NCBI GenBank assembly: GCA_007693785.1
Contig: RECY01000017.1
Coordinates: 1-64,000, forward strand
DNA length: 64,000 bases
Direction of reading: 5' to 3'
DNA from: Phycisphaerales bacterium
GTDB lineage: Bacteria > Planctomycetota > Phycisphaerae > Phycisphaerales > UBA1924
The position numbers and the translations under genes were made by a program. Below the pieces are notes generated by a model. That model had not been told where the DNA came from, made no database searches, and saw nothing but the letters and a program-made list of their open reading frames with translations. This document shows positions 13,931 through 25,108 of the stretch, piece by piece (positions within the stretch are counted from its first letter, which is position 1; the number at the start of each line of letters is the position of its first letter).

Positions 13931-14158
13931 GCCTGGACGCCCCCTCCCTCAGGGGCGTGCGGCTCGTGATGCGCGGGCCGAACACGCGTGACGATGCTCG
14001 CTCGCTGTAGCGCAACAAGAATTAAGCCCGTCCTGATAGGGTTTGTTTCCACGTTTGCCACGAAAACCTCAAGCGAAGCCGAATTGAAGCAAAGCCACGG
14101 CGCTCAAGCAGGTCGTCCTGCCCGGTTGACGTCTGGGGTGGGCGCGATACAGTCTGCC

Positions 14159-14427
14159 CGCTTCAGGTGTCCGCGGGCCTCGGCCTGCGGGTGAAAATGG
14201 GAAGTGTGGTGCAAGACCACCGCGGACGCGCCGCCGTGACGGGCGAGACCGCGGGTCCCCCACCCTGCCTGGCTTTCAGGCCCCGACGCCCCCGCTGCAA
14301 CGGCGAGGCTCGGGCGGGAGCCGCGAACGGCACGGGTGCGGCACAGGCCACTGCTCGGGCGTCGTCCTGACGCCGGGTGGGAAGGCCGGACCCTGCGGGC
14401 CCGGAGCCGGAAGACCTGCCCGAAGCG
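14159..14427 (+). ncRNA. Cobalamin (adenosylcobalamin-class) riboswitch
   Basis: All core blocks of the B12 riboswitch occur in order: AGGTG at 14165, GGGAAGTGTGGTGCAAGACC at about 14199, GCGCCGCCGTGA (the C-C-G-C-x-A-C-T-G-T region), GCCACTG at 14347, GGGAAGGC at about 14379, and A-G-C-C-G-G-A-A-G-A-C-C-T-G-C-C ending at 14420. The closing P1 helix is visible as CGCTTC (14159-14164) with GAAGCG (14422-14427). Peripheral stems are GC-rich and enlarged. Downstream, before the gene at 14693, lie further hairpins (e.g. 14581-14611) but no U tract, so control is probably at translation initiation. Confidence 0.92.
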
Positions 14428-14580
14428 TGTCGTGACGGCCCTCGCGATTCAGGGCGTCGGCGGCGGTCGCTGCGCGCCCTCGGCCTGGTTCCCGCTCCCG
14501 GCATTGGTTCCGCACGTTTCCCCCGGCCTTCTCGCCGGCTCGGTGCGCACCACCCTTGGCGATGGCTGTCGAAAAGCAGA

Positions 14581-14611
14581 GCCCCTCCGCGCCGCGTCGG
14601 CGCGAAGGGGC
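14581..14611 (+). promoter_or_regulatory. Hairpin in the riboswitch expression platform region
   Basis: GCCCC-t-CCGCGCC pairs with GGCGCG-aa-GGGGC around a GCGT loop. It lies between the riboswitch core and the ribosome-binding site of the gene at 14693 and may be one of the alternative structures. No T tract follows. The assignment to a switch mechanism is inference from position. Confidence 0.4.
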
Positions 14612-14692
14612 GATCCGAGGGCCGCCCCCGCGAAACGGGGCGCGACAACGCAGCGGCGCGGCTTGTGTGCGCCGGGAAACTGGAAGGACCGC

Positions 14693-15550
14693 ATGGAACA
14701 TCACATGGATCAGGGTCGCGCGAGGGCCGCCGGGCTCGTTCGGGCGGGTTGGATCGGCACCGCTGCGGCACTCGCGATCGGGGCGTCGGCCACGGCGCAC
14801 ACGCCCTTTGCGGTCGAGGTCACCGAGTACATCGTCGGGAGCGGCGTCAACCCCGCGTTCACAGACTCCAACTCGGCGCTCGGCTCACCCTCACGCTTCA
14901 CCGGCATCCCGGCCGGGTTCCCAAGCGTTGTCAGCCCCTTCAGCGCCCCCTTCGACAACGACCAGCTTGTCCAGATCGGCGAGGGCGGCAGCCTCACACT
15001 CCGCCTCGGCACCCGCGCCTGGAACGACCCGAGCAACCCCTTCGGCGTCGACCTCATCGTCTTCGGCAACGGCAGCCTCATCGACACCGCCTTCCCCAAC
15101 GGCGTCGCCGGCACCCCCGCGGCCGCCTTCGGGCTCGACCCGATGGTCGTCGAGGTCAGCGCCAACGGCGTCGACTTCATCAGCCTCGGGACCTTCACCG
15201 AAGGCCTCTTCCCCACCATGGGCTTCCAGGACGGCGGCCCGTTCGACAGCACGCCCGGCTCGGTCCCGACCAGCTTCACCACCCCCGTCAACCCAGCGCT
15301 CACGCTCGCCGATTTCAGCGGGCTCGACATGGACGGCATCCGTGCGCTCTACAACGGCTCCGGCGGTGGGACGCCGATCGACATCGCCGCCAGCGGGCTC
15401 GACTTTGTCGATTACATCCGCATCGTCAACCCGCTGGGCAGCGGGATCACGGTCGAGATCGACGCGGTCTCGGTCGTGCCGACGCCGGGCGGGGGCGTCG
15501 TGATTATGCTCGCGGGCCTCGCCTGCACCGCGAGGCGTCGTCGCGCCTGA
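14693..15550 (+). CDS. B12-riboswitch-controlled surface protein with PEP-CTERM-like anchor
   Basis: A 285-residue exported protein: basic N terminus, hydrophobic 15-38 ending A-T-A-H, a beta-rich body and a C-terminal VPTPGGGVVIMLAGLACTARR sorting tail typical of exosortase substrates. The body contains G-E-G-G-S-L-T-L-R-L-G, N-D-P-S-N-P-F-G-V-D and LIVFGNG, features of a family of planctomycete surface proteins whose function I cannot name. The start follows GGAAGGA and lies 266 bases after a complete cobalamin riboswitch, so expression should fall when B12 is plentiful. A role in capturing corrinoids at the surface is a reasonable inference, not shown. A BFD-like ferredoxin gene follows. 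Confidence 0.8.
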   Translation: MEHHMDQGRARAAGLVRAGWIGTAAALAIGASATAHTPFAVEVTEYIVGSGVNPAFTDSNSALGSPSRFTGIPAGFPSVVSPFSAPFDNDQLVQIGEGGSLTLRLGTRAWNDPSNPFGVDLIVFGNGSLIDTAFPNGVAGTPAAAFGLDPMVVEVSANGVDFISLGTFTEGLFPTMGFQDGGPFDSTPGSVPTSFTTPVNPALTLADFSGLDMDGIRALYNGSGGGTPIDIAASGLDFVDYIRIVNPLGSGITVEIDAVSVVPTPGGGVVIMLAGLACTARRRRA

Positions 15551-15772
15551 GGCGCGAGACGTGATCGACGCTTGGCCGGATCTGCAAACCACACGCCGTC
15601 GCCCGCGGGAACGCGGGCGCCGGCGATTCCGAAGCATGTGCGCACGGGAAGCATGTGCGCACGGATCGTTGGATAGGCGCTGGCCGAGGCGGGTCGAGTG
15701 CAACACCGGGCGGCGACCGGGGGTTTCACTATGGGAGGGGCGTATGGGCGGAATGATACAGGGGCCTGACCG
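15551..15772. other. Spacer between surface protein and ferredoxin genes with a tandem repeat
   Basis: The 222-bp spacer contains two perfect, adjacent 17-bp units GAAGCATGTGCGCACGG (15631-15647 and 15648-15664). Each includes the palindrome GTGCGCAC. No terminator separates the two genes, so they may be co-transcribed, but a local promoter is not excluded. Confidence 0.6.
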
Positions 15773-16012
15773 ATGTCCGTAGACCGGTGCATGTGCCATG
15801 ACGTGACGTTCGCGGAGCTGCGCGAGCTGGCCGACCGTGGCGCGGGCGATCTTCAGGCGCTGGCTCGGGAGACCGGGTGCGGGACGGGGTGCGGGCTGTG
15901 CGTGCCGTACATCCGCGTGATGCTCCGAACGGGGCAAACGGTGCTGCCGGTGATGACCGCGAGCGAGTTCCGGGCACTGATCGGGACCGAGTGCGAAGGC
16001 ACTCGGCACTAG
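15773..16012 (+). CDS. BFD-like [2Fe-2S]-binding protein
   Basis: A 79-residue protein matching the bacterioferritin-associated-ferredoxin-like [2Fe-2S] domain: C6-x-C8 (CMCHDVTFAEL) and, in the second half, TGCGTGCGLCVPY supplying the C-x-x-C pair. It is a small cytoplasmic redox protein or iron-handling partner. It follows the riboswitch-controlled surface protein and might share its transcript, linking it to corrinoid uptake or reduction; this is inferred only from position. AGGGG about nine bases upstream supports the ATG. It converges on rpoC with a shared terminator between. Confidence 0.8.
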   Translation: MSVDRCMCHDVTFAELRELADRGAGDLQALARETGCGTGCGLCVPYIRVMLRTGQTVLPVMTASEFRALIGTECEGTRH

Positions 16013-16053: not shown

Positions 16054-16082
16054 ACGGGCGTTCCCTTTGGGGGAACGCCCGT
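16054..16082 (-). terminator. Intrinsic terminator of rpoC (bidirectional hairpin)
   Basis: Twelve-base perfect arms ACGGGCGTTCCC (16054-16065) and GGGAACGCCCGT (16071-16082) with a five-base loop. On the minus strand it is followed by TTTTCTTTTC, making a good Rho-independent terminator for rpoC. On the plus strand it is followed by a weaker GTGTGTTTG and may also stop the ferredoxin transcript. Confidence 0.85.
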
Positions 16083-16116: not shown

Positions 16117-20496
<4,380 letters not shown>

Positions 20497-20535
20497 GAGA
20501 AATCACTCCAATCACCAGCGATCTCGCTGGGATAG

Positions 20536-20898
20536 TCAGTCTTCGATATCGACCTGATCCGCAGCGGCGCGGGTCTTCGCGTCGCGGAGGATCCGGTCTC
20601 GTTCGTCCCGAAGCTCGTCGCGCCGCCGCCGGATCTCGGCGCCGTTGCGCCGTAACAGCGGGATGCGCCCAGACCAGTTCGAGAAAACCGGGACCAGGCC
20701 CATGCCGATCGCAGGCACTGCCGCCCTGACGATCGCGTCGAACAGCGAGAACACACCACCGGTCCAGGCCGTGATTGCCGATGCAAGCACGAAGCCCACG
20801 ACCCCACCGACCGCGGCGTACACAAGAACCGCGACACAGACGCAACCCACACTGTGCGTGGCGCTGGTGTGCTGCTGGATGTCACACTGGACCATCAC
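20536..20898 (-). CDS. Small membrane protein encoded between rpoB and rpoC
   Basis: A 120-residue protein with two hydrophobic helices (about residues 19-45 and 48-72), then a charged helix rich in Arg, Glu and Asp (E-I-R-R-R-R-D-E-L-R-D-E-R-D-R-I-L) likely to be a cytoplasmic coiled coil. The GTG start at 20898 abuts the rpoB stop codon without a gap, with an ATG in frame at 20895, which implies translational coupling. No family was recognised. Its presence in this invariant operon is unusual; it may be lineage-specific. Codon use looks like that of its neighbours. Confidence 0.65.
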   Translation of the reverse strand: MMVQCDIQQHTSATHSVGCVCVAVLVYAAVGGVVGFVLASAITAWTGGVFSLFDAIVRAAVPAIGMGLVPVFSNWSGRIPLLRRNGAEIRRRRDELRDERDRILRDAKTRAAADQVDIED

Positions 20899-24708
<3,810 letters not shown>

Positions 24709-25108
24709 CGATACCCTCACTTCATACCGACAGCCCGACCCGCCCAGCCTGCAAGCCGGTCGAGATAGTCCTGCGAGCGTGCCGCGCCCGCCGGGCCTGG
24801 ATGTCAGTTCATCTGATGTATGGTGGCACCCGCACTGTGCTGAACCCATGACAGTAGACGTCTGGCACGCCGATTGCCACCCCCGAGCCACTACAAAAAG
24901 TCAAGAAATCTGAGCAAATCCTTCTCGACATGAAACCCATGGGATGCCACTCACCCTAAAAAGGGTGTACTCCTCCCCCGTCTATCCCACGCCAAGCCCC
25001 GTCGGCACCTCCGATCGGGGCGAGGCCTTGGGCCGACGAGGGGGATGCCTTATACTGAATAAATCGCTTCCGCTCGACGTTGGCGTCACATTCCAGAACG
25101 GGCGTGGC
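24709..25108. other. Divergent region between rpoB and the PDZ-type exported protein gene
   Basis: This 400-bp region should hold the rpoB promoter. On the minus strand TTGACT occurs about 190 bases upstream of rpoB in an AT-rich patch, but the expected -10 is poor. On the plus strand a small hairpin CACCC-taaaaa-GGGTG lies at 24950-24966. No ribosomal L10-type leader structure was recognised. Confidence 0.45.

Follow-up and report, generated by a model that had tools for sequence, protein, structure and literature searches.

A cobalamin riboswitch and the two genes behind it, located within the 64,000-nucleotide stretch of DNA that we analysed (the window), are very probably part of a B12-repressed corrinoid-acquisition system in a B12-using, Phycisphaerales-like planctomycete, with both corrinoid binding and regulation as predicted properties. 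The first gene encodes an exported protein, H1, whose predicted fold resembles the B12-binding domain of Bacteroides BtuH, and the second a BFD-like [2Fe-2S] ferredoxin. This reading provides a likely function for planctomycete surface proteins whose family has no name, and would place BtuH-type scavenging of B12, known from Bacteroidota, in B12-using Planctomycetota as well.

Results

A cobalamin riboswitch precedes the H1 gene

We find that the element at 14148-14437 on the forward strand is, by sequence and structure, a real cobalamin aptamer, predicted to bind cobalamin and to control the genes downstream. In a permissive cmscan search it matches RF00174 over model positions 1-189, the full model, at 27.3 bits, with an E value of 6.1e-5 when the whole 3.06 Mb genome is searched. 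The Rfam Cobalamin check suggested by the initial annotation did return a match, but one that stays under the gathering score of 31.5; at gathering scores no Rfam family matches anywhere in the 64-kb window, and the riboswitch surfaced in the permissive scan. R1, a covariance model built from the riboswitch cores of 22 relatives and including neither copy from the window's own genome, recognizes it at 14199-14420 with 64.0 bits (E 2.3e-15). Alignment with the riboswitches of five relatives reveals common core letters, and in the Rfam alignment the closing helix pairs, though with a few non-standard pairs, which bears out the core blocks and closing helix described at the outset. Both alignments place extra sequence 5' of the GCCACTG box, and to this we attribute the low Rfam score. 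One exact 16-mer recurs in 72 of the 78 riboswitches examined, the window copy included.

The same genome carries a second RF00174 copy (C35:1576-1882) that scores 41.6 bits. It could be argued that this copy heads the intact system and that the window riboswitch is a degenerate remnant whose regulation has been lost, as its score below the Rfam cut-off, its extra aptamer sequence and the absence of propeller and prepilin-like genes from its locus would suggest. We consider this very improbable, given that relatives have the same core letters, that R1 scores the C35 copy equally (64.2 bits) and that the H1 and BFD reading frames are both open.

A sigma-70-type promoter-like site (TTGACG-16-TACAGT, 9 of 12 letters in a consensus scan) lies at 14126..14153 on the forward strand, overlapping the first bases of the RF00174 match; it is a likeness to the consensus, which is no proof of function. 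Leader folding, terminator scan and kissing-loop search found no expression platform: the leader folds no better than shuffled sequences (z 0.57), the scan found no forward-strand terminator before the 14693-15550 gene, and an L5 kissing loop was rejected, as the longest complement of the 16-mer within the 260 nt past the aptamer has a mean of 6.56 in 72 leaders as against 6.80 in shuffled sequence. Weak Rfam matches nearby, to atpB (E 0.13) and Guanidine-II (E 2.8), are taken as chance.

H1 belongs to a riboswitch-linked family of exported proteins

The gene at 14693..15550 (forward strand) encodes H1, a BtuH-like protein of 285 residues that is predicted to be secreted and anchored by its tail, as assessed from its open reading frame, its homologues, profile alignment to a sister family and its fold. 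By eye, the N terminus (14693..14797) resembles a signal peptide and no cysteine-type lipobox is seen. The C terminus (15473..15547) comprises the P-T-P motif as VPTP, a hydrophobic, predicted membrane helix at residues 267-284 and RRRR. A PEP-CTERM-type surface protein had been proposed; the motif, helix and basic tail are indeed present, but none of the curated PEP-CTERM models reaches E 1 against H1, and we therefore class it as PEP-CTERM-like only. Some proteins of the relatives' gene sets match a curated PEP-CTERM model (for example TIGR02595, 18.0 bits, cut-off 16). No Pfam family matches H1 at E 1, PF14717 (DUF4465) included, and DUF4465 as the identity of H1 is ruled out by the lack of a match in the protein or in its genome. 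Its NCBIfam match, to the LIC_13355 lipoprotein family, is weak (E 0.005). Homologues at E 0.001 occur in 71 of the 101 genomes searched, the window's own included, and fall into two groups, full-length H1 homologues and H2, a sister group that is larger and more distantly related.

Among these 101 genomes RF00174 is matched in 96 at E 0.1 and in 92 over the cut-off, and just one over-cut-off riboswitch is present in 86 of the 93 genomes having any (second copy of the window's genome counted). A same-strand RF00174 match lies within 3 kb upstream of 67 of the 72 protein hits in this set. Among hits over 75 bits the fraction is 37/39, at distances of 56-282 bp; for the other two (G089, G065) no riboswitch was found on the contig strand within 3 kb. 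Counted from the RNA, 64 of 100 over-cut-off riboswitches of relatives have an H1 homologue downstream. A second, protein-only scan of an 84,980-species collection confirmed 273 relatives, of which the best 80 loci were analysed; 40 of these are named as Phycisphaerales, -aceae or -ae, and many of the rest as Planctomycetota. How often the homologues follow a B12 riboswitch, a question raised by the initial annotation, can thus be answered: in 75 of the best 80 loci a riboswitch is found in the 1 kb upstream of the gene, and in 71 of the 75 it scores at least 39 bits; one further locus has its match only at 2.3 kb, and the remaining four show no match at E 0.1. Ten of the 80 share sequence with first-set loci, and the riboswitches of four of those ten (L105, L153, L163, L170) were among the 22 that built R1. 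Across the phylum, an H2-profile match at 1e-6 is found in 16 of 199 genomes, at least nine of which, among the matches listed, have a same-strand riboswitch 122-1054 bp upstream; in another of the 16 (G189) the listed riboswitch lies on a different contig.

Three side observations concern this distribution. The planctomycete family f50 has 3-6 cobalamin riboswitches apiece in the eight genomes listed. Two loci, L053 (G098) and L213 (G085), contain two consecutive cobalamin riboswitches, each heading its own genes. Finally, the planctomycete-type gene also turns up in L132, L171, L172 and L179, named Limnohabitans, Leptolyngbya, Omnitrophota and Caulobacteraceae; these are probably metagenome assemblies that carry a wrong name or are mixed.

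A probable relationship of H1 to the BtuH domain

The profiles of H1 and H2 align with an hhalign probability of 99.8 (E 3.9e-30). The H2 profile in turn matches BtuGH (PDB 8blw, 9.5e-34) and BtuH2 (7biz, 5.8e-27) along one stretch near each end of the domain, and nothing besides BtuH structures at 0.001; a single H2 protein finds the same two structures by phmmer (8blw 1.4e-23, 7biz 4.7e-20). Compared directly with structures, the H1 profile has 8blw as its best match, a weak one (E 0.057). The AlphaFold2 model of H1 (pLDDT 86.5) contains a jelly-roll domain at residues about 33-264 (14789..15484, forward strand), for which VIA-align ranks 7biz first (Z 11.9, rmsd 3.6 over 147) and 8blw second (Z 11.5, rmsd 3.3 over 149), followed by PAPP-A (Z 10.1) and carbohydrate-binding modules from Z 9.5. 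Given the profile chain from H1 through H2 to BtuH and this fold ranking, we consider H1 to be, most probably, a divergent member of the BtuH-like domains, with binding predicted from homology and fold. The initial view of a family without known function is corrected accordingly, H1 being linked via H2 to B12-binding BtuH domains.

Foldseek orders the matches of the H1 model differently; its best rows are CBM32 domains, none of them at E 0.001 or better, and 7biz and 8blw are absent among the 50 matches listed, emerging in the VIA-align comparison. Together with the Z of 9.5 that carbohydrate-binding modules reach in VIA-align, this would fit a CBM32-like jelly-roll that binds carbohydrate or matrix for attachment and is simply under B12 control. 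That BtuH structures outrank these modules in VIA-align, that H2 matches BtuH and nothing else at 0.001, and that the linkage to the riboswitch is near-constant make such a role quite improbable.

In the available part of PMC8941943, the C-terminal domain of BtuH2 is described to bind B12, with Asn399 contacting the phosphate. When BtuH2 residues are mapped by letter counting on the H2 profile alignment (chain number plus 100), the equivalent of Asn399 falls in an FGN motif kept in 22/22 H2 and 28/29 H1 sequences, and is N126 in the window protein. The Gln333 equivalent, on PAPGQF, is kept in 21/22 of H2 and absent from H1; at the Leu578 equivalent, on LGE, 11/22 of H2 have leucine and H1 lacks the motif. 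The remaining BtuH2 contact residues are not alignable in H1. With Asn399 kept and the Gln333 and Leu578 motifs missing, the B12 pocket is therefore only partly common to BtuH2 and H1. We do not file H1 as BtuH proper, because it departs from BtuH both in the contact set and in the features of a lipoprotein encoded with BtuB.

The riboswitch heads a recurrent gene set

The second gene, at 15773..16012 on the forward strand, encodes a 79-residue protein that matches PF04324 at 36.3 bits (cut-off 26), as expected of the BFD-like ferredoxin already recognized in the first annotation. It displays the cysteine pattern CxC...CxxC, found as CxC-x(25-50)-CxxC in all 41 BFD reading frames of the loci examined, and has no export signal. 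No terminator-like site was found on the forward strand between the H1 and BFD genes, and we take the two to form a single putative transcription unit, with BFD second. A terminator-like hairpin (terminator scan, 16054..16082, both strands) separates the BFD gene from a convergent rpoC.

By eye, rpoC and rpoB occupy 16117-24891 on the reverse strand, convergent to the riboswitch unit (the observation also takes in L059 and L200-L203), and an rpoC-like neighbour stands at the same place in G002, G014, G031, G043 and G060. While H1 and BFD adjoin the convergent rpoC in the window's genome, the whole gene set occupies that site in G002. Also by eye, two tandem copies of GAAGCATGTGCGCACGG lie at 15631-15664 between the H1 and BFD genes, where propeller and prepilin-like genes stand in many relatives.

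In relatives, the order 3' of the riboswitch is H1 followed by a PQQ_2 propeller, or another propeller followed by H2; a prepilin-like gene and often BFD, in many relatives the last gene of the set, then follow, and some sets have no propeller. Of the 78 riboswitches in the loci examined, 75 have at least 4.5 kb downstream, and among these we count BtuH-like genes at 65, prepilin-like genes (at least 150 bits) at 70, propellers at 54 and BFD at 40; these are descriptive numbers and no test, as the profiles were trained partly on the same loci. The PR2 propeller profile, which also caught dockerin-bearing H2 proteins (L070, L073, L077, L078), was used here with a score floor of 330, and the H1-like part of G073 was missed. 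A better test is the control-backed count over the 59 of the best 80 loci that have 3.6 kb downstream: 57 carry a prepilin-like gene, 30 BFD and 25 a PQQ propeller, and prepilin-like genes appear in 4 of 60 upstream and 1 of 36 further-downstream control stretches. In the window's genome the set is divided, with propeller and prepilin-like genes under the C35 riboswitch and H1 and BFD under the window riboswitch. That genome has 28 prepilin-like hits, among which the riboswitch-linked one is distinct, the next best scoring 77.7 bits.

The propeller was tried as BtuG; the matches of its PR1 profile are confined to hydrazine synthase beta, at E 6e-4, and, at E 0.018, a fibritin chain. A relative's prepilin-like protein is modelled as pilin-like: all four matches listed by VIA are type IV pilins, PilA4 first, at a low Z of 5.1, and with Foldseek the best match is a pilin at E 0.17, with nothing at 0.001. 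Past the N-terminal motif, this protein has 13 aromatic or histidine residues that 21 or more of the 22 sequences conserve.

The regularity of this partner bears on the question of which protein holds the vitamin. H1 might be a scaffold or hand-over partner that binds no corrinoid, leaving B12 to its propeller or prepilin-like partner. H1 retains few of the BtuH2 contact residues, the prepilin-like gene is nearly always present, its 13 kept residues recall the aromatic-rich pockets described for DUF4465 in the available part of PMC13398666, and some riboswitches (L054, L209, L212 and one of L213) head a prepilin-like gene with no BtuH-like gene detected. We nevertheless regard this arrangement as unlikely, since the fold match of H1 is to the very domain of BtuH that binds B12, and the sister family H2 matches that domain by sequence over both ends.

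B12 need, transport and a DUF4465 relative

The genomes appear to use B12: the B12-binding domain PF02310 is found in 31 of 31, and the window's genome encodes MetH with B12 and activation domains, its metH adjoining a FecCD-type permease gene (L194:9789-14768) beside which no BtuF or BtuD is seen by eye. CbiC, of B12 synthesis, is matched in 0 of 61 genomes and in 7 of 14 control genomes, and the TonB plug PF07715 is undetected in the window's genome and present in 12 of 31 (3 of 19 in its own family), absences that refer to draft genomes (the window's own 95.5% complete) and one model each. In G072 and G085 a riboswitch stands directly 5' of a TonB receptor gene, so a switch of this type can control a receptor in one place and the BtuH/prepilin set in another. 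G010 and G011 hold both a TonB plug domain and the H1 set, and the two are thus compatible. An unusual target was noted in L205 (G025 C301, 8738-11136): here the cobalamin riboswitch, scoring 41 bits and situated at the end of a contig, runs into the beginning of a reading frame for an AcrB-type RND transporter (PF00873).

DUF4465 is a B12-binding family: the accessible text of PMC13398666 reports B12 binding in eight diverse members, one from Mucisphaera calidilacus, and that of PMC12751083 presents BtuJ as a DUF4465 B12-binding protein. It occurs in one of 61 genomes, G073, and is absent from the window's own. In G073 the first frame past the riboswitch joins an H1/H2-like part (residues about 11-251; 48 and 49 bits with iterated profiles, 15 bits with A1 and 12.5 at best with A2) to DUF4465 (519-693), and prepilin-like and BFD genes follow. 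The frame has two ends that look like tails and another stretch resembling a signal, and so may hold two separate genes instead of one fused gene.

Discussion

The BtuH-domain homology, the riboswitch linkage, the DUF4465 of G073 and the missing CbiC together support the capture of corrinoids at the cell surface that the initial annotation had suggested, with binding as the predicted step. At low cobalamin, the riboswitch-led mRNA would be expressed; we propose such an OFF-switch by analogy, because known cobalamin riboswitches act in this way. H1, exported and with its BtuH-like jelly-roll domain, would be held at the cell surface by its PEP-CTERM-like tail, and there, judging from homology, fold and context, would bind scarce corrinoids. 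The usual partners, a PQQ-type beta-propeller and the prepilin-like protein, would be made under the second riboswitch, on C35, and the prepilin-like protein may have a part in capture or transport. The FecCD-type inner-membrane permease encoded beside metH could complete import, after which the BFD [2Fe-2S] protein perhaps handles electrons for cobalt reduction.

In dozens of genomes a prepilin-like gene is linked to a cobalamin riboswitch, and in several of these no TonB receptor is detected; how a molecule the size of B12 passes the outer membrane in such cells becomes a testable question. It is possible, though doubtful, that in this group the place of the TonB-dependent BtuB is taken by a pseudopilus or pilus tip under riboswitch control that displays BtuH-like and propeller B12 binders; if true, this would be a TonB-independent, pilin-based uptake of a small vitamin. 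A literature search, with most subscription journals outside its reach, found no pairing of a cobalamin riboswitch with a prepilin, nor of BtuH with Planctomycetes. In the accessible text of the one paper found to name both cobalamin riboswitches and PEP-CTERM, the PEP-CTERM genes follow c-di-GMP riboswitches.

Comparison with known systems

The window riboswitch is like RF00174 cobalamin riboswitches in core sequence and structure, yet it has additional sequence and its score falls short of the Rfam cut-off, and the near-invariant GCGGACGCGCCGCCGT stretch is a feature of the riboswitches of this planctomycete group. The prepilin-like member of the gene set resembles type IV prepilins and DUF1559 proteins in its prepilin-type N-terminal motif and its pilin-like predicted structure, whereas its subfamily is tied to the cobalamin riboswitch, in the window's genome on C35. 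With BtuJ and DUF4465 proteins, B12 binders according to the available parts of PMC12751083 and PMC13398666, H1 has in common an exported jelly-roll and riboswitch-controlled loci; H1 itself has no DUF4465 match, and a single relative, G073, has DUF4465 in a frame shared with an H1/H2-like part.

The closest known counterparts are BtuH (BT_1488, BT_1956) and the BtuGH fusion (BT_1490) of Bacteroides thetaiotaomicron. Both sides have an exported protein with a related jelly-roll domain, the B12-binding part of BtuH, along with a cobalamin riboswitch and a beta-propeller partner, fused in BtuGH. The Bacteroides BtuH proteins are lipoproteins encoded with BtuB receptors, whereas H1 bears a PEP-CTERM-like tail, part of the H2 sister family carries a dockerin, and the H1-type gene is adjoined by prepilin-like and BFD genes instead of a TonB receptor; most of the known BtuH2 contact residues differ in the H1 branch. 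Despite these differences, the proposed working of the planctomycete system is like the surface scavenging of B12 by BtuG, BtuH and BtuJ in Bacteroides.
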